A stretch of DNA of 64,000 nt from an uncultured Bacteroidia bacterium (GTDB taxonomy: Bacteria > Bacteroidota > Bacteroidia > Bacteroidales > UBA932): positions 1 through 64,000 of the forward strand of contig CACZCQ010000004.1 in assembly GCA_902779765.1 (NCBI GenBank). Direction: 5' to 3'. Position 1 is the stretch's first letter. Every line of letters begins with the position of its first letter. Below the pieces are notes generated by a model. It was given only the letters and a program-made list of their open reading frames with translations. It ran no database searches and was not told the DNA's origin. The position numbers and the translations under genes are program-made. Below are positions 7-20,946 of the stretch, one piece after another.

Positions 7-2451
7 CTATTGCTTGAAGTTCTGGAAAGTCGTCCAGTTGCTGTTAGCCTCAGCCGTCGATTCCAGTTCATCGGGCAGATTGGTGAAAAGGTCCAGGCCT
101 GTCAATGATTCGATCCTGTCAACACTGACTGCGTGTGTCACGTAGTTATAATCACTGTCGGAACTGTCATATTCCTTGTGCTCGAACCAGAATGCGATGG
201 AAGACGCACTCGTCACCTTGCCGTTTTCCCACTTAACCTTCATTATAGCCTTCCAGTAATAATTAGGAACAGGCAAATTAGCTGGGGTAATATCGGTTGA
301 AGCAGCCTTAAGATACGTGATATCTTCATTACCTCCGACTGTCCTGTACACTGGTCCAGTCGCGACGTAAAGAGTATCGACCTTCCCCAACTCGTTCCTT
401 ACCGCTTTCTCAAGATTGCCCCAGACTGTTCCGTTGAACTTATTCTGAAGTTGCGGAGTCTGATTGGTAACATAATATGTCTGCTTGTTCATAAGGTCAT
501 CGGACTTACGGTCAGCATTCGGTACCTGATGTCCCCTGGAATACGCACTGTTACCATAGCTAGTCTGGTAACTGTTCTTCACGACATGGACCTGATAACT
601 TTCATCCAGGTCCAGATTGAAATACCAGCTGCTATGGCTGGCCGAACCGGATGTATGATCACTTGTCAATGGATACGCCACCCACATGGAAGCATACCAG
701 CTGTAGCTGTAATTATAGGAATAATTCCTCTCTTTACCTGAATAGAGGGCCTCTACGAAATCCTCATTCCCTGTCAGCGCCGGCAGTTCAAGCCATCCTT
801 GTGGCGCTTCCGGGACATATGCCTTCGCAGTAGTGAAGGATTTCACTTCACCGGTGAACTCCTTGTAGCGGTTCGAAGCCCTGTCCCAAACCTGCATCGT
901 CACCTGATAATAGTAGGTGGTCTCAGTTGAGAGTGATGTCAGGAGGGCCGAAATGGTTCCGGACTCCTGTGGAACGAAAGAATTGTCGTAGGCCATATTG
1001 GTAAGGGAAGAGGGATTAGTACCCCACTTGAAACCTACCTCCTGGGCGTTGAGCGGGCTCAGTTCGCTGAAGGTGGCATTCAATATAGCCGAAGCATTTG
1101 TAACCTTGGTTGCGTCCTTGGTAGTGAGAACCACCTGCGCAGGCCCGGTTATAGGTGCTGATTCCCCACCGACCCTCTTGTAGAGCTGGACAGCCTCCTG
1201 CTTTGATGAAGATGTATATGCACAGAAACGCGGATCTTGGGCGTTATACTGGATAATCCGTTGAGTATTTGCGAGATTCTTAATAATTGCATTTCCATCC
1301 GAATCCATCGAGAGTGTCCAGCGATAGTTGTCAGTGACTGACTCTGCAGTGGTGCTCATCAGGCTGTTCTTGCTCCCTGTATATCCCAGATAACCGCTAT
1401 TATTAAGGTCAAGTGTGTATCCGTTCCCGCTCTTGGCTATGGAGATATTGTATGCTTTGTAGTTATCCCAAGAGATTGTCTCATTGCTGATAATTACCTC
1501 GCCATGGGTACCTATATTGTCAGAGACTCCGGTCAGGACTTGACTACCTTCTTCATACACAATAAGATAATCTCCAGTCCAGTCCGTCGGGGCTGAAGTG
1601 ACCTTCTCATAGTTTGGAGACACCCACTCGAGTCCCTTCACGGTGCCGAGGTTCTTGATGGAACCGGACTCGAAGGCCGACTTCAAGGTTGCGGTCTTTA
1701 TGGCAGTGCATCCATCAGGATCGGTAAACTTCAGGGATATCTCACCACCGGCATTAGGAAGGACAACCATATAGTAAGTGCCATCCTCAAAGGAAGCCCC
1801 GTTGGCTTTGGCAAGGGTCACTGATTTAACCGTATTGCTTCCCGCGGCCGCGGTAGGAGTATCGCCATAGGTCACGACCACATCTCCGGCCAGAGGATAG
1901 GAAGAAGTCAACTCGACCGATGCAATCTTGTGTCCCCCGAGATTCGCCGAAGCGAGGGTGAACTTGGCAATGCTCATGACATTCACGAGCGAGAACTGGT
2001 CATAAGAATCCGCCTTTGCTGCAGAGATATTCATACCGTCCTCATAAGAGCCCGAAGTCGCCACCTGGGAGGAAGCGAGGGTCGTCTTGGCCGTCACGGT
2101 CGAACCACTCTTTGCGAAAGTCGTAGATCCTGAAAATGGCGACATCGCATAGAACTCCGTCGCCGTAGATGATACCTCTCCCGAGAAGGAGACGTTTGAG
2201 CCGGCCTCATCTGCCTTGAACTCCCGGTTCGCGCTGCCGTCATAGATGCTGATGGACTCACCCTTGGAGAATACGACCTTCTTCCCGTCCAGGGTCGTAC
2301 GGGTCTCTACCGTCCCGGCCTTGAAGGTTTTATGGACCAGGATCTCTTCCTTTGCAGGTTCGTCCTTTCCCACCTGCTCGAGTTCGACGACTGCGCAGCC
2401 AGCCATGAATGCCATGGTCGCCGGAATGAGGAATAATGCTAACTTTTTCAT
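7..2451 (-). CDS. Cys-lipoprotein with C-terminal DNA/RNA non-specific endonuclease (NucA/EndoG type)
   Basis: Predicted surface or periplasmic nuclease of 814 aa. An N-terminal lipoprotein signal ends in MAGC (Cys19). Residues about 40-290 resemble the fimbrillin-like N-termini of Bacteroidota lipoproteins. A middle beta-rich module (about 295-430) is also recognisable in the neighbouring lipoprotein at 2819-5284, and a fibronectin-like stretch follows. The last 250 residues carry the nuclease motif SRGHQVPNADR, with presumed catalytic His641, and the downstream NQTPQLQNKFN block typical of beta-beta-alpha-metal nucleases. An ATG at 2457 is possible, but the ATG at 2451 has a GGAGG seven bases upstream and starts directly at the signal peptide. 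It lies 16 bp after a 41-aa peptide gene and probably shares its transcript. Function as a scavenging nuclease is inferred from the family. Confidence 0.85.
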   Translation of the reverse strand: MKKLALFLIPATMAFMAGCAVVELEQVGKDEPAKEEILVHKTFKAGTVETRTTLDGKKVVFSKGESISIYDGSANREFKADEAGSNVSFSGEVSSTATEFYAMSPFSGSTTFAKSGSTVTAKTTLASSQVATSGSYEDGMNISAAKADSYDQFSLVNVMSIAKFTLASANLGGHKIASVELTSSYPLAGDVVVTYGDTPTAAAGSNTVKSVTLAKANGASFEDGTYYMVVLPNAGGEISLKFTDPDGCTAIKTATLKSAFESGSIKNLGTVKGLEWVSPNYEKVTSAPTDWTGDYLIVYEEGSQVLTGVSDNIGTHGEVIISNETISWDNYKAYNISIAKSGNGYTLDLNNSGYLGYTGSKNSLMSTTAESVTDNYRWTLSMDSDGNAIIKNLANTQRIIQYNAQDPRFCAYTSSSKQEAVQLYKRVGGESAPITGPAQVVLTTKDATKVTNASAILNATFSELSPLNAQEVGFKWGTNPSSLTNMAYDNSFVPQESGTISALLTSLSTETTYYYQVTMQVWDRASNRYKEFTGEVKSFTTAKAYVPEAPQGWLELPALTGNEDFVEALYSGKERNYSYNYSYSWYASMWVAYPLTSDHTSGSASHSSWYFNLDLDESYQVHVVKNSYQTSYGNSAYSRGHQVPNADRKSDDLMNKQTYYVTNQTPQLQNKFNGTVWGNLEKAVRNELGKVDTLYVATGPVYRTVGGNEDITYLKAASTDITPANLPVPNYYWKAIMKVKWENGKVTSASSIAFWFEHKEYDSSDSDYNYVTHAVSVDRIESLTGLDLFTNLPDELESTAEANSNWTTFQNFKQ

Positions 2452-2467
2452 CTTCATTCCTCCCCGG

Positions 2468-2593
2468 TTAGTTATTGAATATATCATCGTCATCCTCCTC
2501 GAACTCTCCTCCGCTGACGGTGAGTACATCCTGCATCGCCTTAAAGTACAACACCTCTGCTGAAGGTGTCTCGTAGGGCTGTTTCTTCTTCAT
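2468..2593 (-). CDS. Small acidic-tailed peptide, 41 aa, upstream of nuclease lipoprotein
   Basis: A complete ATG-to-TAA reading frame reads MKKKQPYETPSAEVL at its start and ends in an acidic tail (EFEEDDDDIFNN). Its stop is 16 bp before the lipoprotein start, so the two look co-transcribed. The head closely matches the peptide at 5301-5441: M-x-K-K-x-x-Y-E-[TA]-P-x-A-E. Two neighbouring genes sharing this motif and the same arrangement argue that it is real. Similar short proteins with a Lys-Lys start and a Y-x-x-P-x-x-E motif are common in Bacteroidota and generally have no known function. It has no signal peptide. It could be a precursor peptide, a leader that controls the downstream gene, or an acidic inhibitor of the nuclease; nothing here decides between these. 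Confidence 0.75.
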   Translation of the reverse strand: MKKKQPYETPSAEVLYFKAMQDVLTVSGGEFEEDDDDIFNN

Positions 2594-2818
2594 ATGCTAT
2601 TCGTTCACAATTTATTGTTGAGGGAAGCAATATCTTGCCCAAAATGCTCCCGTCTTGCCCTTTTCCAGTCTTCCGGTGTCATTCAGCCCCGGTTTTTGCT
2701 CCCTGGCCAACCATTGACGCCCCTTTCTTTAACAACATGGGCCCCGACTGGCCGGGGCCCATGAGAGTGATTAAATCATCGGGTGAGGAGCCTCTGAGGA
2801 TCCGCCCCCGAATCAGCT
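2594..2818. other. Spacer between two peptide-lipoprotein modules
   Basis: No further reading frame with coding character is visible. The part next to 2593 must hold the promoter and leader of the small-peptide operon on the minus strand, but I find no exact TAnnTTTG box. The distal part contains the strong hairpin at 2736-2763. Confidence 0.5.
2736..2763 (-). terminator. Strong GC hairpin, probable terminator of the 2819-5284 gene
   Basis: A perfect 10-bp stem (CATGGGCCCC / GGGGCCCATG) with an 8-base loop lies 55 bp past the stop of the upstream lipoprotein gene. The run after it on the minus strand (TTGTTAAAG) is only weakly T-rich, so termination efficiency is uncertain. Confidence 0.5.
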
Positions 2819-5284
2819 TCATTTGTTGTAAATAATCTCAATCGAATCAAACTGGAAATTCTTTCCACTTGCTAATGAGGAAATTCTGTATGGCGTATTC
2901 TCACTGTGTTCCGAAAGACTGAACACCATAGATTCACCCTTAACGGTATTTACAGCTGTGCTTACTGTTGCGCCTGCGGTAGTAAAGATGTTCACACTGA
3001 CGCCTGCCGCACAACCAGAACTATTCTTAACAGTTATGCTCTCGACATAATAGCCTTCTTTAGCAGGAATCTCAATATATGCTGAACTTGCAAATGATGT
3101 AGCTGTTTTGCCAAAGAACAAAGTCTTAGCCGAGCCATTAGTCATCATATAATATGCATTAGGCGCATTGATGATAATAGATTTCCCACCTATTGTGAAT
3201 TCAGTTGCACCACTAGTGGCAGTTCCAGTTTTATCCGGAAAATCAGAAGGATAATTGGCGATATTAGTGAAATCATAGGTGACAATTACCGAATTACCAC
3301 CGATACTCTTAAATGTCGCAGTAACAGTCACATTGCTGGCAGGCATGGTGAACTTGTTATTCGTCACTGTAACGACAGCATTATCGGCATCGACAACCGA
3401 CAATTCATCAAGCATATATCCAGAATTAGGAGTGACCGTAAGAGTAATCTCAGTCCCCTCAGTTGCAGTCGTAGAACTAACCGAGACGTTCCCATTCTGT
3501 GACTCTGAAACCGTAATGGTGTACTCTTCAACTGGTTCACCAGTTACTCCATTCAACGAATACAGATACGCTGCATTAGCTACTGTTTCCGGCGTATTAC
3601 GCTTGTAGTTCATCAACTTGCCATAAATAACCACCTCATCACCGACTTTAATGTCAGTCTGACCCGATTCATATTTCTTATTGCCGAGATAAAGGATACG
3701 GTAGCAATAGAACTCATTGACAGCAGTTCCATCGTCGGAAATATAGAAGGAAGCATTTCCAAAGGTTCCTCCTTCTGTATAAGTTCCTTTGCTTGCAATA
3801 CGGCTTATCTTGCCCTTTACATAGACATCCTCTGTTGCCTCATATTCAGTATTAGAAGTCCAAGTCAAATCCTTAACCTCATCAATTGCAGCCGCAACAT
3901 TGAAAGGATCTTCCTCTGTACCGCTACCAGCAGGTGCTACCACATCAGTATCTTCCGATACCCAAGAATAGGGATAGATGGTAACAGCATTCTCTCCAGA
4001 AGTATAACAAGAGAACAAACTGCTAGTAGCATTAAATCGCATATTATTGCGATTGCTGGATTTTTCAGCTATAATGGTATTTGTTCCATCGCCAACATTG
4101 GTGATCTCCCAGTAATAATCAGCAGTGGCTTCGGTCATTTCATCTGCTTTCAGTTGGTTAGTCTCCTTTGAAGCAGCCTTGAGATACAAACCATTGGCAT
4201 CTTGAATAGTATAGAAACCATTATAATCTCCCTCAGTGATTTTTGTAAATGTCATCTTGATAACATCGACATCAGTGGCTTTGATCGTCTTTTTGGAAAT
4301 ATCCATTTTAACGGGGAGAGCCTTAAGATTATTATTCCCGGATTCAAAAGCTTTGGCAGCAAATAAACCGTTATTATTCCCAGTAATAACCCATTCACCG
4401 GAAAAATCAGTATCAACAACCGGTTTCCCATAACCTTCAAGTTTCAATCCAAACGAGGAGAACTTGCCATTGGTGAAGTTGACGGTACCGAAGGATTTCA
4501 TATAGGTATACTTGTCAGTATAAACTCTGACAACCAGGTTATTACTTTGAGCAGGAATAGTGATGAAATAGACAGGGAATTCTCCTGTAGAACCCACAGC
4601 AATATCATCATATTTAAGAGTTATTACATTACCCTGACTCTGTCCAGCCATTGATGAACCATTATAATAACCGATCAGATTCTCGTCGGAAGTAATAACG
4701 ACTTTATTGACCTTCTCTCCCTCTACCATCTGCTTGAGAGTCATTTTATTGACAGTAACCGGGCGGTTAAAAATAAAAGTGCCTTCAATTTCTGTCTCAC
4801 CCTCAGGAATCTCTTCATCCTCGGAAACAAGGATGTCCGCCGTAGGATCAAAATTGTCTGCAAGAGGATTTTGGGTTGATTTTACCTTGGGTTTACGGGT
4901 ATCCTCACCTTCACTACCAGTCCATTCACTGGCAACGATAGCACGAAGAGTCGAACCCTCGGGAACGTCAGCCTTAATTGTGAGGACCTTCATATCGGAA
5001 GAGAACTCAAGAGTAGGATTCGGGACCTCCGTGAAATGCTCTTTATTTTCTGCGTCGGTAGTAACCTGAAGAAGTTTGAAATTATCCTTGTCCTCATCAG
5101 TCCATACGTATGACACAGACGTCGTACCTTCGACAGCTGCAGTCCTGGTCTCGCCAGCCTTCTCCGCCCTGAAAGTAACGGATACAAGATTATCAGAAGG
5201 ATCCTGGAAATCAGCTTCCTTCTGGCAGGAAGAAAGTGAGATGGCTGCAATAGCAGCAATTCCAAAATAGATAAGCTTTCTCAT
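2819..5284 (-). CDS. Large multidomain Cys-lipoprotein (fimbrillin-like N-terminus, OB-fold-like and bacterial-repeat modules)
   Basis: 821 aa. The start at 5284 follows an AGGAGG ribosome-binding site and begins a lipoprotein signal ending in LSSC (Cys20). In order I see a fimbrillin-like N-terminal region with the usual GETRT segment; a middle module ending NNMRFNATSSLFSCYTSG that parallels residues about 295-430 of the nuclease lipoprotein; an OB-fold-like segment (VYVKGKISRIASKG...); a bacterial-repeat module of the InlB/Flg_new type (SVSSTTATEGTEITLTVTP); and a C-terminal beta-sandwich-like domain. No catalytic motif is visible. It is probably displayed on the outer membrane for adhesion or binding. 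A 46-aa peptide gene ends 16 bp upstream, mirroring the arrangement at 7-2593. Confidence 0.75.
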   Translation of the reverse strand: MRKLIYFGIAAIAAISLSSCQKEADFQDPSDNLVSVTFRAEKAGETRTAAVEGTTSVSYVWTDEDKDNFKLLQVTTDAENKEHFTEVPNPTLEFSSDMKVLTIKADVPEGSTLRAIVASEWTGSEGEDTRKPKVKSTQNPLADNFDPTADILVSEDEEIPEGETEIEGTFIFNRPVTVNKMTLKQMVEGEKVNKVVITSDENLIGYYNGSSMAGQSQGNVITLKYDDIAVGSTGEFPVYFITIPAQSNNLVVRVYTDKYTYMKSFGTVNFTNGKFSSFGLKLEGYGKPVVDTDFSGEWVITGNNNGLFAAKAFESGNNNLKALPVKMDISKKTIKATDVDVIKMTFTKITEGDYNGFYTIQDANGLYLKAASKETNQLKADEMTEATADYYWEITNVGDGTNTIIAEKSSNRNNMRFNATSSLFSCYTSGENAVTIYPYSWVSEDTDVVAPAGSGTEEDPFNVAAAIDEVKDLTWTSNTEYEATEDVYVKGKISRIASKGTYTEGGTFGNASFYISDDGTAVNEFYCYRILYLGNKKYESGQTDIKVGDEVVIYGKLMNYKRNTPETVANAAYLYSLNGVTGEPVEEYTITVSESQNGNVSVSSTTATEGTEITLTVTPNSGYMLDELSVVDADNAVVTVTNNKFTMPASNVTVTATFKSIGGNSVIVTYDFTNIANYPSDFPDKTGTATSGATEFTIGGKSIIINAPNAYYMMTNGSAKTLFFGKTATSFASSAYIEIPAKEGYYVESITVKNSSGCAAGVSVNIFTTAGATVSTAVNTVKGESMVFSLSEHSENTPYRISSLASGKNFQFDSIEIIYNK

Positions 5285-5300
5285 TATTATTCCTCCTAAA

Positions 5301-5441
5301 TTAAAAATCACCTTGATCATCAACTTCATCATTCGGACCGGGACCTCCATTTACAGGACTATTGTTCTGCATCTGATTTGAATCGAGATTCAACTCGATC
5401 AGCTCCGCGTAGGGAGCTTCATAAAACATCTTCTTGTTCAT
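5301..5441 (-). CDS. Small acidic-tailed peptide, 46 aa, upstream of lipoprotein
   Basis: A complete ATG-to-TAA frame begins MNKKMFYEAPYAELIEL and ends NDEVDDQGDF. It shares the Lys-Lys, Y-E-x-P-x-A-E head and the acidic tail with the peptide at 2468-2593. The tail here also holds an NGGPGP segment. There is no signal peptide or transmembrane stretch. It sits 16 bp before the lipoprotein start and is separated from the kinase/peptidase/RRE/exporter operon only by the repeat-rich spacer at 5442-5935. That makes it a candidate substrate of the operon, which is inference only. Confidence 0.75.
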   Translation of the reverse strand: MNKKMFYEAPYAELIELNLDSNQMQNNSPVNGGPGPNDEVDDQGDF

Positions 5442-5504
5442 AATTCTGAATTTTGAATATTAATAATTAAACAAATTGCCTTTTTAAATGCCCTGGATTC
5501 CGTC

Positions 5505-5525
5505 TCTAATAGGTTCCCTATTAGA
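5505..5525. promoter_or_regulatory. Perfect inverted repeat TCTAATAG-N5-CTATTAGA
   Basis: The 8-bp arms are perfectly complementary around a 5-base centre, 64 bp upstream of the 46-aa peptide start. It could be an operator or a hairpin in the 5' leader. No binding protein can be assigned. Confidence 0.4.
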
Positions 5526-5713
5526 AGCAAACCAAAAATCGAGCAATTTTATAAAAAATAAGCGTCTTAAACAAATAAAATAATCCTCTTTGCAAAAGGT
5601 TTTGACTTATTGACAAAGAGGGAATTAGCGGGAATGCCCACGGGACCGCATAAGGGGGCGTTTTTTGCTGTCAACCGGTAACGAAATAAAATATCAACAA
5701 GGTTTTGAACCTG

Positions 5714-5734
5714 CCCCTTCGACAGGCTCAGGGA
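5714..5734. repeat. REP-like repeat, copy 1
   Basis: The sequence CCCTTCGACAGGCTCAGGGA sits in the spacer. It matches the copy at 5865 except for one base inside the shared core, and is imperfectly self-complementary (CCCT...AGGG). Confidence 0.5.
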
Positions 5735-5864
5735 GAGGGTATGGCTAAGGGGGCGGAGTAAAAGTCCGGGGAAAGTGATACTCCAAGGCCGGGGAAAGCG
5801 GCGGAATCCCGGCCGTGGGGTGTTAAAACGTACTCCGGGGCCGGGAAAACACAAGAAAACCCGG

Positions 5865-5886
5865 CCCTTCGACAAGCTCAGGGACC
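5865..5886. repeat. REP-like repeat, copy 2
   Basis: The sequence CCCTTCGACAAGCTCAGGGA is a near-identical second copy of the element at 5714, in the same orientation. Words of this kind recur in the intergenic DNA of many bacteria. No transposase gene is in the window. Confidence 0.5.
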
Positions 5887-5935
5887 GGGGATGGCACTAG
5901 GGACCGGTTGGTGAGCCGGTCGAACCACAGGGGCT

Positions 5936-7324
5936 TTATTTCACCTTGATCTTCAGGCACCAGATGTGCTCGCAGGGGAGCTTGCGGCGAAGAGATTCGG
6001 GGATGGTCACAACCACACCCTTGCCGTCGGGTGCGGCCTTCCACTTCAGAGTCTGCTTGGAGCCTAGCATGGTCACACCTCGCGATGAGACGGGTACAAA
6101 TGACGGGATAGAAACCTGGGACGGAATCTCGGCCGAAGCCTCATCCTCAGGGACATAGTATGCATACACATAATCCCCTTTCGCAGTATAATAGACCTGG
6201 CCGTCCTGGTAAGGAGCCACGGCCTTGGTGGCGTAAACACCCTCGGAATTGACCTGCATCCAGTCACCTATCTCATGGAGCCTTTCATAGGCCGTTTCCT
6301 CAAGCGTACCGTCCGGACGGGGGCCGACATTGAGAAGGAAGTTTCCGCCACGGGATATGATCTGAACGAGCATGGTCAGGATGGTGGCGGTGGACTTGTA
6401 CTCGAGATCGGGCCTGTATGACCAGCTGTAAGTCATTGTAACACAGGATTCCCAAGGATAGTCCAAAGCCTTTTCGGGGATGGTCTGTTCGGGAGTCTGG
6501 TAGTTCTCGTAGATCGAGCGTTCTCCCCTCGCGACCATGATCGTTCCGGGTTGGTTGCCTCTTACTACCTTAGCGAAGCGCTCCCAGTCGTATTTGGCTT
6601 CCTTGCTGTCATCAGTCACAGGCATGTCGTACCACATCAGCATTAGGTCGCCATATTCACCGGAAGTTAGCTCACCCAGCTGGGCAGCGATATAATCCTG
6701 GAAAGCAGCCCATTTCTCCGGATGGTTCGCGGCCGTGTAATTCGCCCTGGTGCTCTTAGGAGGGAATTTCCTCCACCAGAAATCGTCATTGTGCCAGTCG
6801 GGCATCGAGAAATATACACCGGCCTTTATATCGCGGGCACGGAAAGCATTGAAGACCTCCTTAGAAATATTTGCACGTGGATCGGAGTGGAAAGCACAGC
6901 CTTCATCGGTCACCTTGTAGTCGGTCTGATGGGTGTCGAACATGCAGAAACCGTCGTGGTGCTTGGTGGTGAATACGACATATTTCATACCCGCGTATTT
7001 TGCCGCGTCAGCCCATTTGCCAGGGTCGAATTCAGTAGGATTGAAGGTATCCTTGAGGTGCTCATATGCCTGCAGATATTCGAAATATGACATATTCCTC
7101 TCCGTCCTTGCCCTGTACTGCCAACTGATGTCGTCCGGAGCCAGGGACCAGGATTCGATGACCCCCCACTGGCTGTATGCACCCCAGTGGATGAACATAC
7201 CGAACTTGAGGTCCTGCCACTCGGCAAGGTTGGCCTTTACGTCCTCCTCGACAGGAGGGATGTACTGTGCGAACGAGTTCAGCGATATGAATATCGCCGC
7301 AAGGATGATGGTTGTCTTTTTCAT
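5936..7324 (-). CDS. Secreted alpha-L-fucosidase, GH29
   Basis: 462 aa with a Sec signal peptide (cleavage near NSFAQ, residue 20). It hydrolyses terminal alpha-L-fucose from glycans, presumably in the periplasm. Family hallmarks include FGMFIHWG near residue 41, TTKHHDGF near 119, and GDLMLMWYD, whose Asp233 is the expected nucleophile. Length fits compact GH29 enzymes without a large C-terminal domain. The gene begins 28 bp after the ABC exporter stop on the same strand, so it appears to be the last gene of the kinase-peptidase-RRE-ABC operon rather than part of a SusCD locus. That is an odd home for a fucosidase. Confidence 0.92.
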   Translation of the reverse strand: MKKTTIILAAIFISLNSFAQYIPPVEEDVKANLAEWQDLKFGMFIHWGAYSQWGVIESWSLAPDDISWQYRARTERNMSYFEYLQAYEHLKDTFNPTEFDPGKWADAAKYAGMKYVVFTTKHHDGFCMFDTHQTDYKVTDEGCAFHSDPRANISKEVFNAFRARDIKAGVYFSMPDWHNDDFWWRKFPPKSTRANYTAANHPEKWAAFQDYIAAQLGELTSGEYGDLMLMWYDMPVTDDSKEAKYDWERFAKVVRGNQPGTIMVARGERSIYENYQTPEQTIPEKALDYPWESCVTMTYSWSYRPDLEYKSTATILTMLVQIISRGGNFLLNVGPRPDGTLEETAYERLHEIGDWMQVNSEGVYATKAVAPYQDGQVYYTAKGDYVYAYYVPEDEASAEIPSQVSIPSFVPVSSRGVTMLGSKQTLKWKAAPDGKGVVVTIPESLRRKLPCEHIWCLKIKVK

Positions 7325-7352
7325 TACTATCGTGTTATTAATCAGTATCTGT

Positions 7353-9020
7353 TCAGCACTCCGACAGGTTCACGACATCGTCGGCGATGCGAATCGCAGC
7401 GGGACGGTGCGAGATGAACACAATGGTCTTGGAGCCTGCCAGGTTCGTATGGATGCTGTCCAGTAGACGTTCCTCGGTCTCCGTGTCAAGGGCGGAGGTA
7501 GCCTCGTCCAGGATCATTACCCCTCCCCTGTGCAGGAGGGCACGGGCAATGGCTATCCTCTGGCACTGGCCTTCAGACAGACCGGTCCCGCTCTCCCCGC
7601 AGACGGTATCCAACCCGTCAGGAAGGTCGAGCACGAATTCAGCCGCTGAAACCTTCAGGGCCTTGATTATCTGGTCATCGGTCGCATCTTCATTTACCAG
7701 CAGCATATTCTCACGGATCGTTCCGCTCATCAGGCTGTTGCCCTGGGGAACGTAGGTGAAATTGCACCGTGTATCGACGTCTGCCGAATGAGCCCGGTTT
7801 CCCTGGCCATAGAGGCTTACAGTACCCGATGATGGCTTAAGAAGACCGAGCATCAGGCGCGTCAGGGTACTCTTTCCAACTCCCGTGGGACCTGCGATGA
7901 CGGTCAGGCTGCCGGGCTTGAAATCGTAGGAGAAGTGATTGAGAATCAGACGCCCCTGCCCTTCGGCATGATCAGGAGCAGGGTTAGTGTACGCAAACGA
8001 TACATCGTTGACCTTTATTCCGGGAGCACCCTCATAAAGTACGTCACCATGATATTTCTCGACCTTGAGGTCCTCGAGTTCAAGCAAGCGTTCGACGGAT
8101 GTCAGGGCCTTGATGAAGGCCGGGATCTGGCTCCCAAGACCGGCTATAGGTCTCTGGACCTGGCTTACCAGCTGCAGGAAGGCGGTCATCATACCGTAGG
8201 TCACTGCCCCGGACTTAATACCGAATATGCCCCAAAGGAAGGCGGCGGCATAGCCGCCCATGAATCCCAGGCTCATGAAACCGCGGGCCACCGCGTTGTA
8301 ATTCAGCCGGGTAACTGTCAGCTTCATCACGCGGTTCTGGAGACCGTCGAGCCGCGAGACTATGTTGCCCACACCGAAAAGCGTAAGCACCAGCACACGG
8401 TTCTGGAGATTCTCCTGTTCCAGCTGCTGGACCTCGCTGTCTATCTTACGGATGTCCGATGTCAACTCACGGATCTTTCCGAAATACATCTTCGAACCGA
8501 TCACCGCCGCAGCCATAAGGATAATCAGCACCCATAGCAGAGACGGAGCCATCGTCAGCAGGTATACGGATGCTGCCACCAGTTGGCAGACAGTTATGAT
8601 CACTTCCGGGAAACTGCTGCAGATCAAGTCGGTAAGGACACGGATATCCTCTTCCAGGCGGTTGATGGTATCTCCGGACCTGAAAGCCTCACGTCCGTTC
8701 CAACGGGAATTCAGGACATGGGCGAACAAGCCAAGCCTGAGCTGGTTCCTGGTCTTTATGGAATTATATGCACCCCAATAGTTTGAGGAGAGACCGCATA
8801 TGATCTGGACCAGGATGATGCCGATCATGATGAAGACATGTGTCTTGAGGTCGGCATCGCTTACACCTGTGGCGATATCCACCAGGCGCTTGCAGATCCA
8901 AACGAAGGACAGGGAGGCCCAGATACGCACCAGGCCGATGAGGATCGTAACCAGATCCCTGCCCAGCACGGGCTTCGACATACGCCAAAGGCCCTTCATA
9001 CATGTCTTGAAATCCTTCAT
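7353..9020 (-). CDS. ABC exporter half-transporter (fused permease and ATPase)
   Basis: 555 aa. A type I exporter membrane domain with about six helices (residues 15-300) precedes a nucleotide-binding domain with Walker A GPTGVGKST (377-385), a VPQGN Q-loop, an LSEGQCQR signature and a Walker B/D-loop (MILDEATSALD). There is no N-terminal C39 peptidase domain, so leader removal would have to be done by another protein. The gene begins 17 bp after the PqqD-like gene. Together with the upstream RRE, peptidase and kinase genes this suggests export of a modified peptide or lipid-like product. The transport direction follows from the family; the cargo is unknown. Confidence 0.9.
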   Translation of the reverse strand: MKDFKTCMKGLWRMSKPVLGRDLVTILIGLVRIWASLSFVWICKRLVDIATGVSDADLKTHVFIMIGIILVQIICGLSSNYWGAYNSIKTRNQLRLGLFAHVLNSRWNGREAFRSGDTINRLEEDIRVLTDLICSSFPEVIITVCQLVAASVYLLTMAPSLLWVLIILMAAAVIGSKMYFGKIRELTSDIRKIDSEVQQLEQENLQNRVLVLTLFGVGNIVSRLDGLQNRVMKLTVTRLNYNAVARGFMSLGFMGGYAAAFLWGIFGIKSGAVTYGMMTAFLQLVSQVQRPIAGLGSQIPAFIKALTSVERLLELEDLKVEKYHGDVLYEGAPGIKVNDVSFAYTNPAPDHAEGQGRLILNHFSYDFKPGSLTVIAGPTGVGKSTLTRLMLGLLKPSSGTVSLYGQGNRAHSADVDTRCNFTYVPQGNSLMSGTIRENMLLVNEDATDDQIIKALKVSAAEFVLDLPDGLDTVCGESGTGLSEGQCQRIAIARALLHRGGVMILDEATSALDTETEERLLDSIHTNLAGSKTIVFISHRPAAIRIADDVVNLSEC

Positions 9021-9037
9021 TCCGGAAAGCGATAGGC

Positions 9038-9307
9038 TTATTCAGAAACTATCCCTGCCTCGATCCACTTGGCGGCAATCGCGGCTGCATCGGCGGCCGC
9101 ACGCTCTTCCTCCACCTCGTAATTGTCGGTGAGAAGCTTGGTAAGGTCCTCCACGGTGAAATCCTTCCCTTCGACATTCTCCCAAAGGAAAGCGGCAGTC
9201 GAATTCAGGGAAATCATCTTGTTGAAGTTGATCTGGGATATTCCCTCCCCTATGACGATAAATTCCTCGCCGAGGGGTCTGAGTACGAATCCATCAATTA
9301 TCTTCAT
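9038..9307 (-). CDS. PqqD-family protein (RiPP recognition element)
   Basis: 89 aa. The PqqD fold is recognised from a strand-rich N-terminus (MKIIDGFVLRPLGEEFIVI), the central SLNSTAAFLWENVEG segment, and a helical tail. Such domains bind leader peptides of ribosomally made, modified peptides and hand them to modifying enzymes. The start at 9307 overlaps the stop of the peptidase gene (ATGA), giving translational coupling, and fits the family N-terminus; longer upstream starts lie inside the peptidase gene. It lies between the Sec11-like peptidase and the ABC exporter. Confidence 0.85.
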   Translation of the reverse strand: MKIIDGFVLRPLGEEFIVIGEGISQINFNKMISLNSTAAFLWENVEGKDFTVEDLTKLLTDNYEVEEERAAADAAAIAAKWIEAGIVSE

Positions 9308-9753
9308 CGAATAACTCTTTTGTAAATTGCCAATATATATCTCCGGAAGGGTCTCAGCAAACGCCATGCCTTCCCTTTCCCGGGCTTGACGATCCGGCCT
9401 CCCGCTTTCCGGATCTCGGTCACCAGGCCGATAATGTCGGAATGACCGCAGTACTCCTTCCCATAGACGTTGCCGTCACCCATAAGGGTTATCGAGTCGC
9501 CTTCAACTGCAAAGACCCTGTGCATGATAAACCTGTCACCTATCTTTGCCAGGAGGATATCTCCGATTTCCGCCGGCCTGTCGAGCCTCGTAAGGACGAC
9601 CTCGTCCCTGCCGTTCCTTATGAACGGGAGCATGCTGTTGCCCTTGGGAGTGATCACCACCTCCCTGCCCTCCTTGAGCAAGTCATCGACAAGGGCGAAA
9701 TAGTTATCGTCCCCTATGGTCTTCCTGTCAGATGACTGCGGGGCGCTATACAT
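9304..9753 (-). CDS. S24/S26-fold peptidase, soluble Sec11/SipW-like
   Basis: 149 aa. The motif KGNSMLPFIRNGRD contains the presumed nucleophile Ser40. MHRV supplies His78 where Lys is found in classical LepB, and MGDGN supplies Asp93. That Ser-His-Asp pattern is the one seen in SipW/Sec11-type signal peptidases. Unlike those enzymes it lacks an N-terminal membrane anchor and ends in a basic amphipathic tail (RPFRRYILAIYKRVIR), so it may act on a cytoplasmic peptide or dock to the membrane or exporter. It overlaps the kinase gene by 8 bp and the PqqD gene by 4 bp. Leader-peptide cleavage is inferred from context. Confidence 0.82.
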   Translation of the reverse strand: MYSAPQSSDRKTIGDDNYFALVDDLLKEGREVVITPKGNSMLPFIRNGRDEVVLTRLDRPAEIGDILLAKIGDRFIMHRVFAVEGDSITLMGDGNVYGKEYCGHSDIIGLVTEIRKAGGRIVKPGKGKAWRLLRPFRRYILAIYKRVIR

Positions 9754-10630
9754 TCTTCAATACCTCGTTAGAACAAACAATGGCCGCTTCGTCATCCGGC
9801 AGGCAGTCCATGACATAGCAGGGAACGCTCTGGACGATGGAAGAGATGGTCGCGAACAAGCCGTCGCCGATGCTGCGTATAGCCCTGAGGCCGGAAGATG
9901 ACGAAGAAACCGATGCGAAGGACTCCGGAAGGTTCATCCTGTGGATCGCATCGTGGGGAGCACGGTTGATGCGCACGAATGCGCCAACCGGATAGTCTTC
10001 ATTGCGGTAACAGGGAGTCTTGCCGCTCCACGGGCTGCCATAGACGCGCGTTTCACCGTCGATGAACCGCACGATTGGATTATCGTCATTGAGGAGATGT
10101 GTTCCGGGAATATTCTTGAGCCAAAGGCTGCTGTGGGTGCTCTTTCCGGTGCCGCTCTTTCCAAGGAACAGGAAGCCGTGTCCGTCCTTGACGGTCACCG
10201 AAGCATGCATCTCAAGCGTGCCCATACCGGAGGTGCGGAATGCGTAAAGAAGCATCAGGGCATTGTTGATACAGAACCGCCTGGCCTTCTCCGCCTTCAG
10301 GCAAGCCTTGCTGAAATCCGAAGATACTTTCATCCAGCCACAGACCGGAACGTTGCCGAAAGGCGCCAGTTCAAAAACATACCCGTCCGGGATGGTGTAG
10401 ATATCAATCCTCTGCTCAAATTCCTCCGGAGTGGAGACATATAGCGGTTCCTTGCCGTCCACATCGAGATCCTGAACCAATTCGAGGGTGAATATCCTCT
10501 CCTCATCCCCTTCGAAAATGAAGGGAGCATAATTGTCAAGAGCAGACCACAAGGCCTCCTTCTCATCCATCCTGAGGGAGAAAATGTGTCCTGCAACCTT
10601 GAATGACCTTTCCTGCATCTGCGAATCCAT
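9746..10630 (-). CDS. HPr kinase/PEPCK-fold kinase, RiPP-cluster type
   Basis: 294 aa. A C-terminal nucleotide-binding fold has a P-loop GKSGTGKST (157-165), a metal-binding LLNDDNP (Asp182, Asp183) and a VYGSPWSGKT segment, as in HPr-kinase-like proteins that accompany PqqD and ABC genes in peptide clusters. In lasso-peptide systems related kinases phosphorylate the precursor. Automatic annotation often calls such proteins phosphoenolpyruvate carboxykinase, but length and motifs do not fit that enzyme. It is the first gene of the operon. A perfect TATATTTG box lies only 8 bp upstream of the ATG, so initiation may be near-leaderless, or at Met5 (10618). Confidence 0.85.
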   Translation of the reverse strand: MDSQMQERSFKVAGHIFSLRMDEKEALWSALDNYAPFIFEGDEERIFTLELVQDLDVDGKEPLYVSTPEEFEQRIDIYTIPDGYVFELAPFGNVPVCGWMKVSSDFSKACLKAEKARRFCINNALMLLYAFRTSGMGTLEMHASVTVKDGHGFLFLGKSGTGKSTHSSLWLKNIPGTHLLNDDNPIVRFIDGETRVYGSPWSGKTPCYRNEDYPVGAFVRINRAPHDAIHRMNLPESFASVSSSSSGLRAIRSIGDGLFATISSIVQSVPCYVMDCLPDDEAAIVCSNEVLKNV

Positions 10631-10638
10631 TTATTCTG

Positions 10639-10646
10639 CAAATATA
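10639..10646 (-). promoter_or_regulatory. -7 box TATATTTG for the kinase operon
   Basis: An exact match to the Bacteroidota -7 consensus TAnnTTTG read on the minus strand, ending 8 bp before the ATG at 10630. Confidence 0.6.
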
Positions 10647-10686
10647 TAAAAAAGTTGTACCTTTACCTTGGACTAATCCAGGACCC

Positions 10687-12213
10687 ATGAAAAAATACCT
10701 CTCCCTCATCATCGCCCTCACACTGTCCCTTACCCTCACGGCAAAGGACAACGAATGGTCCGTGCGCGAAAACCTTGACAAGGCGGAGGAGAGTCTCTCG
10801 AAGGATCCTGCCAAAGCGATCTATTACGGGGGGCAGGCCCTGACTGCAGCCACTGCCGCGCGCCAGCCGGAACTCGTAGCTGAAGCGCAGTATCTGATCG
10901 CCAACGCGTACATCAACATAGGCGACTACGTGACGAGTTATGAATATCTTGTCGAGGCGGAAAGGAACTGTCCTGAGTCTGACAGGAGGTTGAAGGGAGA
11001 CATCCTGCTAAGCATCAGCTATACCTACCAGAAGATCAAGGATTTCGACAGCGCGTTCAAGTATCTGGAGACCGCCCGAGGATTGTTCGTGGAGCTGGAT
11101 GATACGGTATCCATCGCACGGTGCGCCAACAACAAGGGCCTCATCTACATAGCCATCCCTGACAATGAAGAGGCCCGGAAGTGCTTCGAGGAATCCCTGA
11201 GACTTAACAGGTTGGTCGGAAACAGGACCGGCATAGCCCAGAACCTGAACAATATGTCCTTCATCGACGGTGATCCGATTACGACGATCGGCCAGCTCAA
11301 GGAAGCGATTGCTATCAACGAGTCCCTGGACAGGACCTGGGTCCTAGGAGAGAATTACAACAACCTGGGCTACCAGTACCGCAGGGCCGGGAACTCCGCC
11401 GCCGCACTGGATGCCTTGGCCAGGGCGAGGGCCTATGCCGATATGACCAACGCCAAGGAGTTGATAATGGACAACTTCCGGTACCGTTCCGAAGTATACG
11501 CCCAGAAGGGAGACTTCGCCCATGCATATTCCGACCTCAAAGCCCTCCTGGACAGGATAGAAAGCCAGGATATGACTGGCGGGCTCAAGAACATTGAGGT
11601 GAACCTGATGGAGAAGAACATCCAGGTCATACGCAAGGAGAAGGAGCAGAAGGAACGGGAATTCCGGATGAGAAGGAATATCGCTATAGCGGTCATTATC
11701 CTTCTTGCTGCCGTCTGTGCAGCCGTCGCATTGTCATACAGGATGTTCCGCAAAGCCAACAGGGCCCAGAAGGAGCTGATGCAGAAGGAATTGGACCTGA
11801 AGAAGAAGGAACTGGACAATTTCGCCATCTGGGTGAAGAGCCGCAACGAGATCCTGGCAGGGATACAGGAAAAGATCAAAGGGATCTACGGAATGGAGAC
11901 CTCGGAGGCAACCCTGCAGCTGAAGAAACTGAATTCCAACATCTCCCAGTTCAACAGGACGAATGACGAGGCGGAAAAGATGATTGACGACCTCAACTCT
12001 GGTTTCATCTCAAAGCTGTCCGAACTGTATCCGGACCTTTCCAAATCGGAACGCAGGCTCGCTTCCCTGCTGAAGATAGGGATGTCCTCCAAGGAGATTT
12101 CGCTGATAATGTCCATGGAACCCAAGTCAGTCGATATGGCCAGGTACCGCCTTCGCAAGAAACTGAACCTTTCTGCCAACGACAATCTCTGTGATTTCCT
12201 CGGAAAAATCTGA
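10687..12213 (+). CDS. TPR sensor-regulator with transmembrane segment and LuxR-type HTH
   Basis: 508 aa. A signal peptide (MKKYLSLIIALTLSLTLTAK) is followed by roughly six tetratricopeptide repeats (about 30-320), one transmembrane helix (about residues 340-360), a Lys/Glu-rich coiled coil and a C-terminal GerE-like helix-turn-helix (SKSERRLASLLKIGMSSKEI near 460). This layout belongs to membrane-spanning TPR regulators of Bacteroidota that sense through a periplasmic TPR domain and bind DNA inside. The ATG at 10687 begins the signal peptide; a longer frame from 10603 would overlap the divergent kinase gene. It lies immediately upstream of the SusC operon and is its likely regulator. Confidence 0.8.
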   Translation: MKKYLSLIIALTLSLTLTAKDNEWSVRENLDKAEESLSKDPAKAIYYGGQALTAATAARQPELVAEAQYLIANAYINIGDYVTSYEYLVEAERNCPESDRRLKGDILLSISYTYQKIKDFDSAFKYLETARGLFVELDDTVSIARCANNKGLIYIAIPDNEEARKCFEESLRLNRLVGNRTGIAQNLNNMSFIDGDPITTIGQLKEAIAINESLDRTWVLGENYNNLGYQYRRAGNSAAALDALARARAYADMTNAKELIMDNFRYRSEVYAQKGDFAHAYSDLKALLDRIESQDMTGGLKNIEVNLMEKNIQVIRKEKEQKEREFRMRRNIAIAVIILLAAVCAAVALSYRMFRKANRAQKELMQKELDLKKKELDNFAIWVKSRNEILAGIQEKIKGIYGMETSEATLQLKKLNSNISQFNRTNDEAEKMIDDLNSGFISKLSELYPDLSKSERRLASLLKIGMSSKEISLIMSMEPKSVDMARYRLRKKLNLSANDNLCDFLGKI

Positions 12214-12269
12214 TCCGTAGAGAAAGCATAATTATCAAGTTGTTGATTCTCAGCAACTGACATCAGTAA

Positions 12270-12312
12270 TTTGTAGAGATTAAAGTGTTCATACCCCCTC
12301 TTTTGTAGAGAT
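12270..12312 (+). promoter_or_regulatory. Direct repeats TTTGTAGAGAT, 32 bp apart; candidate operator
   Basis: Two identical 11-bp words start at 12270 and 12302, a spacing of three helical turns, and a partial copy GTAGAGA lies at 12217. They sit between the LuxR-type regulator gene and the SusC operon it probably controls. A tandem same-face site suits a dimeric helix-turn-helix protein, but binding is inferred. Confidence 0.5.
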
Positions 12313-12369
12313 GGGAGATATATCCTTTTCTTGGTGGCCCGGAACGTCGCTTATACCTTCGCCGTCGAA

Positions 12370-12386
12370 AGCCCGGCTGCCGGGCT
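12370..12386 (+). promoter_or_regulatory. Leader hairpin upstream of SusC
   Basis: A perfect 7-bp stem AGCCCGG/CCGGGCT with a 3-base loop lies 24 bp before the SusC ATG. It could affect translation or RNA stability. No T-run follows, so it is not a terminator. Confidence 0.4.
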
Positions 12387-12410
12387 GCCACTTAATTAAC
12401 GACGTAATTC

Positions 12411-15400
12411 ATGAAAAGGATTCTGTTAACCATCTTCCTGGCATTGGGAGCCATCCTTGCGCAAGCGCAGGACAAGATCAATGTCAAAGGACAAATCAAG
12501 GACGAGACAGGGGCCGGTGCACCCGGAGCCTACGTACTCGTCAAGGGCACGAGTCAAGGGACGAGCACTGACCTTGACGGTAACTACTCCATAGACGTGA
12601 CAAGAGGCGCCACGCTTGTCATCTCGCTGATCGGCTACAGGACGGTCGAGGCAGTCGCGGATTCGCAGACCCTGGACCTCACTCTGGTACCGGACGCCGA
12701 AATGCTGGAAGAAGTCGTAGCCATTGGATACGGAAGCCAGAAAAGGCAGGATGTATCCGGTGCGGTCGCTTCGGTCAGTTCCAGGAAACTTGAAAAGATC
12801 GCGACCGAAGATGCATCCACCGCTCTCCAGGGAATGGCTCCGGGTCTCTCGGTCAACTTCTCTTCCGGAGCTCCTGGAAGCGAACCTGTGATGATGGTCC
12901 GTGGAGTCACCTCCTGGGGATCGGACAACACTCCCCTTGTGATAATAGATGGTGTACCAGGCTCGATGTCGTACCTGAATCCGGAGGATATCAAGTCCAT
13001 TTCAGTGTTGAAAGACGCTGCCACACAGGCGATTTACGGAGCCAGGGCCGCAGCAGGGGTCATCCTGGTGGAGACAAAGCGCGGAGAGAGGGCTTTCGAG
13101 CCGAAGATCACGATGTCGGCATATTACGGAATCGACGACCTTCCCAAAAGGATGGAGATGTGCAATTCAGCCGAATTCGTCAAGGTGAGGCAGTGGGCCC
13201 TTGAAAATGCCGGAGAGCCTCAGGAAAGGTGGCCGGCCTATATCGCGGCCTACAAAGCGGACCCTTCCCGCTTCGCGGACACCGACTGGCAGAAGGAATA
13301 TTACCAAACTGGCGTATCACAGAAGTACGATGTCGGCTACGTGGCCGGCAACAGCAACATGAACGTTTCGTTCTCCGGTTATTATTCGAACATAAAGGGT
13401 ATCGCGGTGGCCACCGGTTCCGACAAATTCGGTTTCAGGCTCAACTCGGATGTGAGGCGCGGCCGCTGGCAGATCGGGGAATCCGTGAATTTCGGACACG
13501 AGGACATCATACCCGTCGAGAGCTCCGGCTTCGATACGATGTACCAGGTTACGAACATAGAGCCCCTGGTGTTCGTCTACGATGAAAGGAACGACGGCGG
13601 ATACGGCGGCGCGGTCGCCGGGATGGGCATGTCTGATGCGGGCAACCCCGTGGCATTCAACAGGCTGATCGACACCAGGCACCATTACGACGGACTCTCC
13701 GCCTCGGCATATATCTCATATTCCCCCGTCGAGGGCCTTGTATTCAAGTTCCAGGGCAGTGACAACCTCAATTTCTCACACACCAAGGCTTTCACCCCGA
13801 CCTACCAGATCGGTGCCTTGAAGCCCAACCCGGACGCATCCCTCAGCGAATCCAGAAGCATGAGCAACCGCTATCTGCTCGAACTCACGGCCAATTACGA
13901 CAGGACTTTCGGGGAAAGGCACAACGTGTCGGCCCTCCTGGGAGTCTCTCAGGAAGATTATATCTACAGTGACCTCAGCGGCTTTGCCAAGAAGTTCGAG
14001 AACAACCTTATGACGTATCTCGAACACGGGCAGAAGGATTTCGCCGTCGGTGGGGGCCGCAGCAGGTACGGACTTCGTTCAGCTTTCGGCCGTCTCGGAT
14101 ACAATTACGACAACCGATATATTGCAATGTTCTCAACCAGGTATGACGGTTCCTCCAGGTTCGCAGAAGGCAACAAGTGGGGTTTCTTCCCTTCCGTCTC
14201 CCTGGCCTGGAACATAGCGAAGGAGGATTTCTGGAGATCCCTTGCCGGAACGGTATCCACCTTCAAGCTGCGATTGAGTTACGGTGCCCTCGGCAACCAG
14301 GGGATCGGCAACTATCAGTACATACCCACTCTGACCTCGGCTACCAACAGCCTCAACTATCCTTTGGCGGGACTTGATGAAATCAGCCTCGGGTATGCGA
14401 TCACGAGCCTTCCCTCTCTCAACATCAAGTGGGAGTCGACATACACCTCCAATATCGGAGTGGACCTGGGATTCCTGGGCGGGAAGCTCCAGATGTCTGC
14501 GGACGCCTATCTCAAGGATACCCGTGACATGCTGTCCACCAAGGAGATAAGCAGCAGCACCGGTTTCTCGGCGATGCTCGTCAACGATGGAGAACTCAAG
14601 ACGCGTGGTTTCGAGTACCAGTTGGAATACCACGGGAACTCAGGCCGGGATTTCCAGTACGACCTGGACCTCAACCTTTCCCATTACAGGAGCAAGCTGG
14701 TGTCCATGTCCAATCCGGACTACCTGTATGAAAACGGTCCTGCCAGGACATACGTCGGCGCCGAGATCGGAGAATTCTGGGTATTCCAGACAGATGGACT
14801 GTTCAGGAGCCAGGAAGAAGTGGACATATTCAACAGGACCCACGGTCATGAGGATGAGACAGGGGCGTGGATCCCGCTTCAGCCTAGTGCCAGACCCGGC
14901 GACATACGCTTCGTGGACCAGAACGGAGACGGTCAGCTGGACAACGACGACAAAGTCATGGTCGGGACCGGCAATCCCAAACTCATCGTCGGATTCAACG
15001 CATACCTGAGGTACAAGTCCTTCGACCTGACGGCCCAGTTCTACGGCAACCTCGGAGCCAAGAGGTACAACTACACCAAGTACCAGCTCCAGAGGATGGA
15101 CCAGATTTTCAACTACGGCAAGGACGCCCTCGACTCCTGGAGACCGGACAACCCCGACACGGATATCCCGCGTGCGGTGATCGGAGACCCTAACGGGAAC
15201 AACAGGATTTCGGACAGGTTCGTGGAGAATGGAGACTACCTCAGGCTGAACAATCTCCAGATCGGATACAACCTGCCTGCCCGGGCCTGCAAAAAGATCG
15301 GTATTGACAACATGAGGATTTATGTAGGTGGCAGAAGGCTGTTCACACTCACACGCTACACCGGCTACGATGTTACCACGGGTGCCTCGAACGGCTCCAT

Positions 15401-15467: not shown

Positions 15468-15486
15468 TCACCTGATTTACAAAGAG

Positions 15487-17302: not shown

Positions 17303-20946
<3,644 letters not shown>

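Follow-up and report, generated by a model that had tools for sequence, protein, structure and literature searches.

A probable LPP-like RiPP system in Bacteroidales, with precursor-like peptides encoded ahead of lipoprotein genes

The DNA analysed here, called the window, is a stretch of 64,000 nt (contig CACZCQ010000004.1, assembly GCA_902779765.1, positions 1–64,000) from an uncultured, gut-type bacterium of the order Bacteroidales. Four of its genes, all on the minus strand and overlapping or abutting in 7353–10630 according to the list of open reading frames (ORFs), encode an HPr-kinase-like protein, a soluble peptidase, a PqqD-type protein and an exporter, and two short peptides with a shared head are encoded nearby. 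We find that the four genes, here called the cassette, are a conserved unit, and several lines of evidence support that the peptides and the cassette belong together. We consider it likely that they form, in Bacteroidota, a ribosomally synthesized and post-translationally modified peptide (RiPP) system of the linear polyphosphorylated peptide (LPP) type, known from lppA-K-B-S-D-N of Paenibacillus alginolyticus (Popov et al., Nat Commun 2026, PMC13381572). In that paper, LPPs are stated to be restricted to Bacillota and to have an unknown role. Machinery of this kind now turns up across many families within the window's order and in a single genome from beyond it.

Putative precursor peptide 1 (46 amino acids, aa) is encoded at 5301–5441 and putative precursor peptide 2 (41 aa) at 2468–2593, both on the minus strand, with a YEAP motif within 5403–5423 and a YETP motif within 2555–2575, respectively. 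The initial annotation had described two peptides of 41–46 aa sharing a head, and both indeed exist: the back-translated head motif TAYGARNNNCCNNNNGCNGAR has exactly two perfect matches in the window, one in each peptide. With one mismatch allowed, TAYGARNNNCCNNNNGCNGAR has four matches against 0.55 expected, a number reached in none of 100 shuffles; the two additional matches are not peptide genes. A "third peptide" at 23525 was discarded, as it falls inside a 266-aa lipoprotein-like ORF, and the small-ORF scan gave no peptide gene at the extra motif match in 17853–17873. A profile made from the two window heads (A2) matches in 60 of 101 genomes of the same genus (E <= 10), mostly in small ORFs, and a profile of 25 rows (A3) matches in 84 of the 101 (E <= 1), often several times per genome and often on contigs other than that of the cassette, the last two points being an impression and not a count. 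Since the profile finds the family in so many same-genus genomes, a chance origin of the shared heads is untenable; chance resemblance of the two window heads is ruled out by the motif shuffles together with the many similarly built small ORFs. In the window's own genome, a third family member lies on another contig, again ahead of a lipoprotein gene.

The peptide set used below, which includes the two from the window, comprises 74 distinct sequences at E <= 0.01; from these 74, which contain the first ones from the wider order, a further profile (A6) was built. The peptides are mostly about 40–60 aa long with YxxP in the leader, and their consensus is Y-E-A-P-x-[AT]-E-[VL]-[LIV]-E-[VL]-x-x-E-[GQ]-x-[IFV]-[CLA]-x-S. 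Pairwise identity falls from 0.35 in the head to 0.10 in the tail. The tails have a median of 18 residues and are acidic, with 322 Asp and Glu against 23 Lys and Arg, and about one Cys, in 1,331 residues. An aromatic residue is found within the last four positions in 53 of the 74 peptides. A Ser stands 16 residues past the motif Pro (P+16) in 51 of the 74, and a Ser within P+14 to P+17 in 67, against 21.5 +/- 3.9 (maximum 36) when the tails were shuffled 1,000 times. As the A3 profile covers the Ser position, we repeated the count on a subset, the 28 peptides of loci first brought in by a shorter profile ending at P+15: 24 of these have Ser at P+15 to P+17, though they had to pass the A3 cut as well. 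Outside the genus the same holds for 13 of 14 peptides, these too having been found with A3. Third codon positions vary at the Y, P, E and S of the peptides, and selection therefore acts on the protein. None of the 74 heads is convincingly matched in Pfam or NCBIfam (best E 0.045), and pipelines relying on these libraries would therefore leave the peptides unnamed; PHROGs gave nothing, or chance E-values, and a search for plasmid-borne homologues of peptide 1 gave no match.

The presence of the peptides tends to follow that of the PqqD-type protein. Within the genus, peptides (E <= 0.01) are found in 54 of 73 genomes with a strong PqqD match versus 6 of 19 without PqqD (p = 0.001; nine genomes with weak PqqD, five of them with peptides, were omitted), and among genomes of at least 90% completeness in 29 of 36 versus 1 of 5 (p = 0.014). 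In the order, all ten peptide genomes found with A3 carry PqqD at 2e-18 or better. With A6, PqqD at E <= 1e-12 is present in 14 of 15 peptide genomes versus 31 of 392 overall (p 2e-16), and outside the genus in 11 of 12 versus 27 of 388 (p 2e-13). In a sample of 227 genomes from the phylum, none of them in the window's order as judged by the kinship order of listing, a single genome (G497) has peptides, and PqqD at E <= 1e-12 is likewise confined to G497; two further PqqD matches lie at 1.4e-12 and 1.8e-12, and 10 of the 227 match at E <= 1e-3. Both peptides of this genome are encoded ahead of lipoprotein-like genes. Pooled outside the genus, cassette-type PqqD is carried by 12 of 13 peptide genomes versus 28 of 615 overall (Fisher p = 7e-17, as with the other co-occurrence values without correction for phylogeny). 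If the peptides had occurred mostly in genomes lacking the cassette, the link suggested by the initial annotation would have failed; the opposite was found.

Physical linkage is seen in four genomes outside the genus, which span at least two families. In the cultured Proteiniphilum acetatigenes (L323, 7312–13035), the genes for a peptide, a lipoprotein, HprK, S26 peptidase, PqqD, NTP transferase and the ABC exporter form one run of seven, named by homology to the cassette and not by a family scan, which makes strain DSM 18083 a cultured carrier with the whole set in one gene run. A second genome (L201, G306) has the same single run of peptide, lipoprotein, HprK, S26, PqqD, NTP transferase and ABC, and a third (L200, G403) has HprK, S26, PqqD and NTP transferase followed by peptide and lipoprotein. 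In the fourth (L202, G119, of the same family as G306) the peptide, with an E-value of 1.3 by A3 and 0.005 by A6, adjoins HprK. Within the genus, the distance between the cassette and a peptide–lipoprotein pair is 2.2 kb in G087 and 5.8 kb in G105. The proposed link between peptides and operon is thus upheld by co-occurrence and by linkage in the four genomes, while most of the peptides lie away from the cassette.

The cassette itself is widely kept. A search with the peptidase matched 20 of 41 genomes, the window's own included; 19 of the 20 are among the 25 genomes of the same genus, and the twentieth is a weak match (1.8e-4). Cassette-type PqqD occurs in 82 of the 101 genomes of the genus (E <= 1e-3) and in 59 of 392 genomes of the order, in 31 of them at E <= 1e-12. 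We counted neighbouring genes at 20 loci, taken from 20 of the 27 genomes of the order outside the genus with PqqD at E <= 1e-12: within 6 kb of PqqD, HprK is present at 17, S26 at 18, NTP transferase at 11, ABC at 12 and all five at 7. The NTP-transferase homologue lies inside the cassette at these 11 loci, and PF14907 was confirmed for three examples. A scan of titled records, restricted to the best 80 of 589 relatives, gave HprK at 74 loci, S26 at 76, ABC at 72 and NTP transferase at 7; the best 80 include Candidatus Cryptobacteroides aphodequi, many metagenome-assembled genomes of rumen Bacteroidales and P. acetatigenes DSM 18083. Two same-genus cassettes (L031 and L032, in G013 and G003) retain S26, PqqD and ABC, with one additional gene separating the latter two; tblastn found no HprK in either.

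The four genes of the window lie where the initial annotation had placed them, and their assignments were largely confirmed. The first (9746–10630, minus strand, 294 aa) encodes a putative HprK-like peptide kinase. Its scores are weak, with Pfam PEPCK_ATP at 8e-4, Hpr_kinase_C at 0.14 (below cut-off) and the NCBIfam model ScmC at 1.3e-5 (below cut-off); H142, a Walker A SGTGKST (159–165), D182-D183 and PWSGKTPCY (200–208) are invariant in 39 of 39 aligned sequences. The assignment as an HPr-kinase-like enzyme is thus carried by the Walker A, His and Asp-Asp residues and not by the profile scores. Matches of the kinase profile to CDK7 in the PDB (4e-4) were dismissed as chance because the alignments cross the Walker A region without matching Walker A. 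The next gene (9304–9753, minus strand, 149 aa), overlapping the first by 8 nt, encodes a soluble S24/S26 (Sec11/SipW-like) peptidase and putative leader peptidase (Pfam Peptidase_S24, 9.3e-8), in which S40, H78 and D93 are invariant in 18 of 18 same-genus sequences. It shows weak likeness to LexA (0.003) and SEC11A/C (0.04) in the PDB, and in NCBIfam the models for archaeal and bacterial signal peptidase I score best, at 0.001, which is below cut-off. The PqqD-type RiPP recognition element (RRE; 9038–9307, minus strand, 89 aa) overlaps the peptidase gene by 4 nt and matches PF05402 at 1.2e-15; its profile matched the lasso RRE TfuB1 (6jx3_B) in the PDB at 1e-4, and N35, Y63, A70 and D73 are invariant in 29 of 29 sequences, namely the window's and 28 homologues from 29 loci of the order-level search. 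The exporter gene (7353–9020, minus strand, 555 aa) begins 17 nt further on. Its product matches ABC_membrane and ABC_tran at about 5e-26 and has no peptidase domain among its Pfam matches, as had been claimed, and we call it MsbA-like on its best NCBIfam model, MsbA (4e-63), although the score is under that model's own cut-off. The statement that the set contains no lasso cyclase or radical SAM enzyme also stands: among the nine window proteins scanned by Pfam we saw no radical SAM enzyme, no macrolactam cyclase C and no B2 cysteine peptidase, the latter two without a genome-wide search.

What the initial annotation had not noticed is that each window peptide is paired with a downstream lipoprotein gene. 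The partner of peptide 1 (2819–5284, minus strand; Flg_new_2 4.8e-17, lipobox SLSSC by eye) starts at 5284, 16 nt after the peptide stop, and the partner of peptide 2 (7–2457, minus strand), with a C-terminal DNA/RNA non-specific endonuclease domain (Endonuclease_NS 2.2e-34), starts at 2457 or 2451, 10 or 16 nt after the stop. Across the family, a same-strand lipoprotein start lies within -60 to +150 nt of the peptide stop for 66 of 74 peptides, versus 9 of 123 background ORFs from the same loci. One of the eight misses is due to a contig end, and another is the pair of window peptide 2, counted as a miss because the filter rejects the signal of its lipoprotein. With a slightly different filter, 67 starts (closest plausible Met) lie at a median of 15 nt past the stop, with one overlap. 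The partners have no Pfam family in common among the 65 scanned of 70, five duplicates, fragments or doubtful starts having been dropped. Their domains vary and include endonuclease, BACON (2e-4), leucine-rich repeats (LRR_5 in three) and fimbrillin-like domains (Mfa_like_1 in 3 of 65), and what they share is an N-terminal pattern in the majority columns of lipobox, T-K, W and YP. This regular lipoprotein partner provides a testable hypothesis for the function of the peptides.

A census of 85 of 102 ORFs flanking the peptide loci (17, mostly short or odd, were removed by hand) gave TPR_2 in five, Phage_integrase in four and PDDEXK_2 transposase in three, and was otherwise mixed. The non-specific endonuclease domain of the window lipoprotein at 7–2457 recurs in 2 of the 85 (one of them L059, 1663–3045). 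By eye, tyrosine-recombinase-like ORFs lie beside peptide–lipoprotein pairs at five loci (L140, L144, L149, L069 and L072), and could perhaps point to switching or mobility of the pairs. In the window itself, invertible promoters or phase variation are unsupported, since no inverted repeats of at least 14 nt were found in 5200–6000 or 2400–2900.

We propose that the system works as follows. The PqqD-type RRE would bind the leader through Y-x-x-P, the residues after the motif contributing a beta strand, as the lasso and LPP structures and the invariant pocket residues suggest. The HprK-like kinase would phosphorylate a Ser that opens the core or lies close to its start, most often the one at P+16; here the conserved position of the Ser and the analogy to LppK point the way. 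The soluble Ser-His(-Asp) peptidase would remove the leader near E-x-x-[IFV]-[ACLM]-x-S, presumably presented to it by the RRE. By the signal-peptidase rule, an alternative cleavage site would lie after x-S. A candidate site before [ACLM]-x-S is suggested by analogy to LppA, the core of which begins AQS, and LPP leader cleavage requires the RRE (PMC13381572); some of the Bacteroidota peptides have AQS at this place (L158, L168, L161 and L102), and others have A-x-S. The MsbA-like transporter would then export a short, linear, acidic peptide poor in Lys and Arg. One cassette would serve several precursors, mostly in trans, and the mature peptide presumably acts on or with the surface-type lipoprotein encoded with it. 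Going further, we tentatively raise the possibility, which we rate somewhat below even, that a central cassette matures a whole set of phosphorylated peptides and that every one of them serves the surface lipoprotein made together with it, which is large, modular and in some cases fimbrillin-like, as a dedicated ligand, as an assembly factor or as cargo, giving genome-wide and possibly switchable pairs.

Several observations weigh against our reading. Six of the 19 PqqD-negative genomes of the genus have peptide matches (their completeness is 55–91%), and in the order one genome, G250, has a real-looking peptide without a detected cassette PqqD, the sole exception at that level. Conversely, no peptide at E <= 0.01 was found in 17 of 31 PqqD genomes of the order and in 19 of 73 of the genus, and the co-occurrence values are uncorrected for phylogeny. 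A family member lies near the cassette, in the DNA examined, at only 1 of 18 loci of same-genus relatives (L029, where it stands ahead of a lipoprotein-like gene and was found by the profile, having been missed by an earlier regular expression) and at 6 of 80 loci in the titled-record set. The identity of the kinase rests on its motifs, with all scores under curated cut-offs. Window peptide 1 has no Ser at P+14 to P+17, its Ser residues being at P+11 and P+18, whereas peptide 2 has one at P+17. The window cassette has no NTP-transferase gene; one of two NTP_transf_5 (PF14907) genes of the same genome, outside the window (G000, C5:62915–63631 and C2:5301–6008; L220–L223), may supply this function, and both adjoin genes that by eye resemble those for glycosyltransferases, aminotransferases and polysaccharides. 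Finally, HQ and FET of the LPP leader consensus are absent here, so the full motif is not matched (PMC13381572).

Some of these points would fit a cassette that only recognises, cleaves and exports an unphosphorylated signal, with the HprK-like protein doing something else, for example regulation. Peptide 1 lacks Ser at the expected place, and no HprK-like protein was detected at 3 of the 20 order-level loci that keep PqqD, one of which (L217) is a contig of 5.3 kb. We nevertheless find this unlikely, as the kinase and peptidase genes overlap in the window and are neighbours at many loci, and the Bacillota counterpart phosphorylates its precursor (PMC13381572). The many PqqD-positive genomes without a detected peptide, and the few loci with a peptide near the cassette, might instead mean that the true substrate is another, undetected precursor and that the YxxP peptides co-occur with the cassette through shared lineages. 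Against this, a peptide stands beside the cassette in four genomes from at least two families outside the genus, and YxxP is a known RRE-binding motif (PMC13381572), which leaves such a substrate decidedly improbable.

The tight spacing between peptide and lipoprotein (66 of 74 within -60 to +150 nt, median 15 nt in 67 measured) is what one could expect if the peptides were cis-acting upstream ORFs that set lipoprotein translation, the cassette processing something else. But the protein motif is conserved while third codon positions vary freely, the Ser is conserved beyond the leader, the peptides co-occur with the RRE, and the peptide of L202 adjoins HprK and is not ahead of a lipoprotein; we regard this explanation as highly improbable. 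Least of all do we believe in a decayed lasso-peptide cluster from which the cyclase has disappeared. A YxxP leader, a discrete RRE, an HprK-like kinase and an NTP transferase are common to lasso systems (PMC13381572), but the leader peptidase is of a different, Ser-His type, no cyclase was seen among the seven genes of the P. acetatigenes run as named by homology, and the cassette is kept across many families of the order and is therefore not decaying. We favor phosphorylated, leader-cleaved and exported peptides of LPP type.

As for the surroundings, an alpha-L-fucosidase gene (5936–7324, minus strand) lies between the cassette and peptide 1, and this gene and about 500 bp make up the gap. 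In the intergenic stretch at 5600–5900, between the fucosidase gene and peptide 1, we noticed by eye two similar copies of CCCTTCGACA[A/G]GCTCAGGGA together with G/C-rich sequence, which reads like a dispersed intergenic repeat. Upstream of peptide 1, at about 5505–5525, there is a short palindrome, likewise seen by eye, TCTAATAGG-TTC-CCTATTAGA, perhaps a regulator site; its length is below what the inverted-repeat search could pick up. On the other side of the cassette, 10603–17001 (plus strand) holds a divergent gene for a TPR protein (536 aa) followed by SusC-like (12411–15467) and SusD-like (15487–17001) genes, named by eye; in the close relative G087 (L134), the cassette likewise has the TPR gene beside it, at 75% identity, together with a gene resembling the one that comes next.

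Among known systems, SynChlorMet (ScmC/ScmD; NCBIfam TIGR04249/TIGR04248) resembles the cassette in the kinase (1.3e-5) and PqqD (0.033), both far below the cut-offs. SynChlorMet cassettes include radical SAM enzymes. With lasso systems of the paeninodin type, the Bacteroidota system shares the discrete RRE, exporter and [Y/W]xxP leader and, as putative parts, the HprK-like kinase and (in many relatives) the NTP transferase, paeninodin leaders having WxxP (PMC13381572), and YxxP is the lasso RRE motif (PMC12710340). It differs in that the operons read here, including the seven genes of P. acetatigenes as named by homology, showed neither a B2 peptidase nor a C cyclase, without a genome-wide search, and it is thus not a lasso system.

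The closest likeness is to LPPs, which have a SpI-like peptidase LppS (S29, H68, D93), a discrete RRE LppB, an HprK-like LppK, an NTP transferase LppN and an MsbA-like LppD (PMC13381572). The window cassette holds four of these five core parts, the kinase as a putative one, and some relatives all five, the leader carries YxxP, the C terminus is variable, and the operons read here have no cyclase. The LPP precursor motif is YxxPxVLxHQxIxFETxxS, with several phosphorylations on core Ser3, 15 residues past the motif Pro (PMC13381572), against 16 in most Bacteroidota peptides. In LppB, D70 holds the Tyr and N33 the Pro kink of YxxP (PMC13381572); RRE residues N35 and D73 may correspond to N33 and D70, a match made by spacing alone, LppB not being among the PDB profile-search matches of the RRE. 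Peptidase S40, H78 and D93 resemble the Ser-His-Asp of LppS, where the pairing of the two D93 residues is tentative, as His and Asp are 15 residues apart here and 25 in LppS. The protein types are those of the studied Bacillota system (PMC13381572), in agreement with the earlier view of a set for recognition, phosphorylation, cleavage and export; the likeness is one of anatomy, from which binding, phosphorylation, cleavage and export in Bacteroidota are inferred. The differences are the phylum, the short acidic tails, precursors that are mostly in trans, frequently number several per genome and in most cases have a lipoprotein gene as partner, and an NTP transferase often outside the cassette. 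Since the full leader consensus is unmatched and the window cassette lacks the NTP transferase, we do not file the system as LPP in the strict sense; it is a Bacteroidota LPP-like variant. We found no report of such a system in Bacteroidota in open-access titles and abstract openings, a scope that leaves out subscription papers and most preprints. New relative to the Bacillota work (PMC13381572) are the host phylum, the mostly in-trans and often multi-copy precursors and the lipoprotein partner, and if the more tentative idea of peptides dedicated to their own lipoproteins is correct, these pairs would be the first clue to the purpose of LPP-type peptides.

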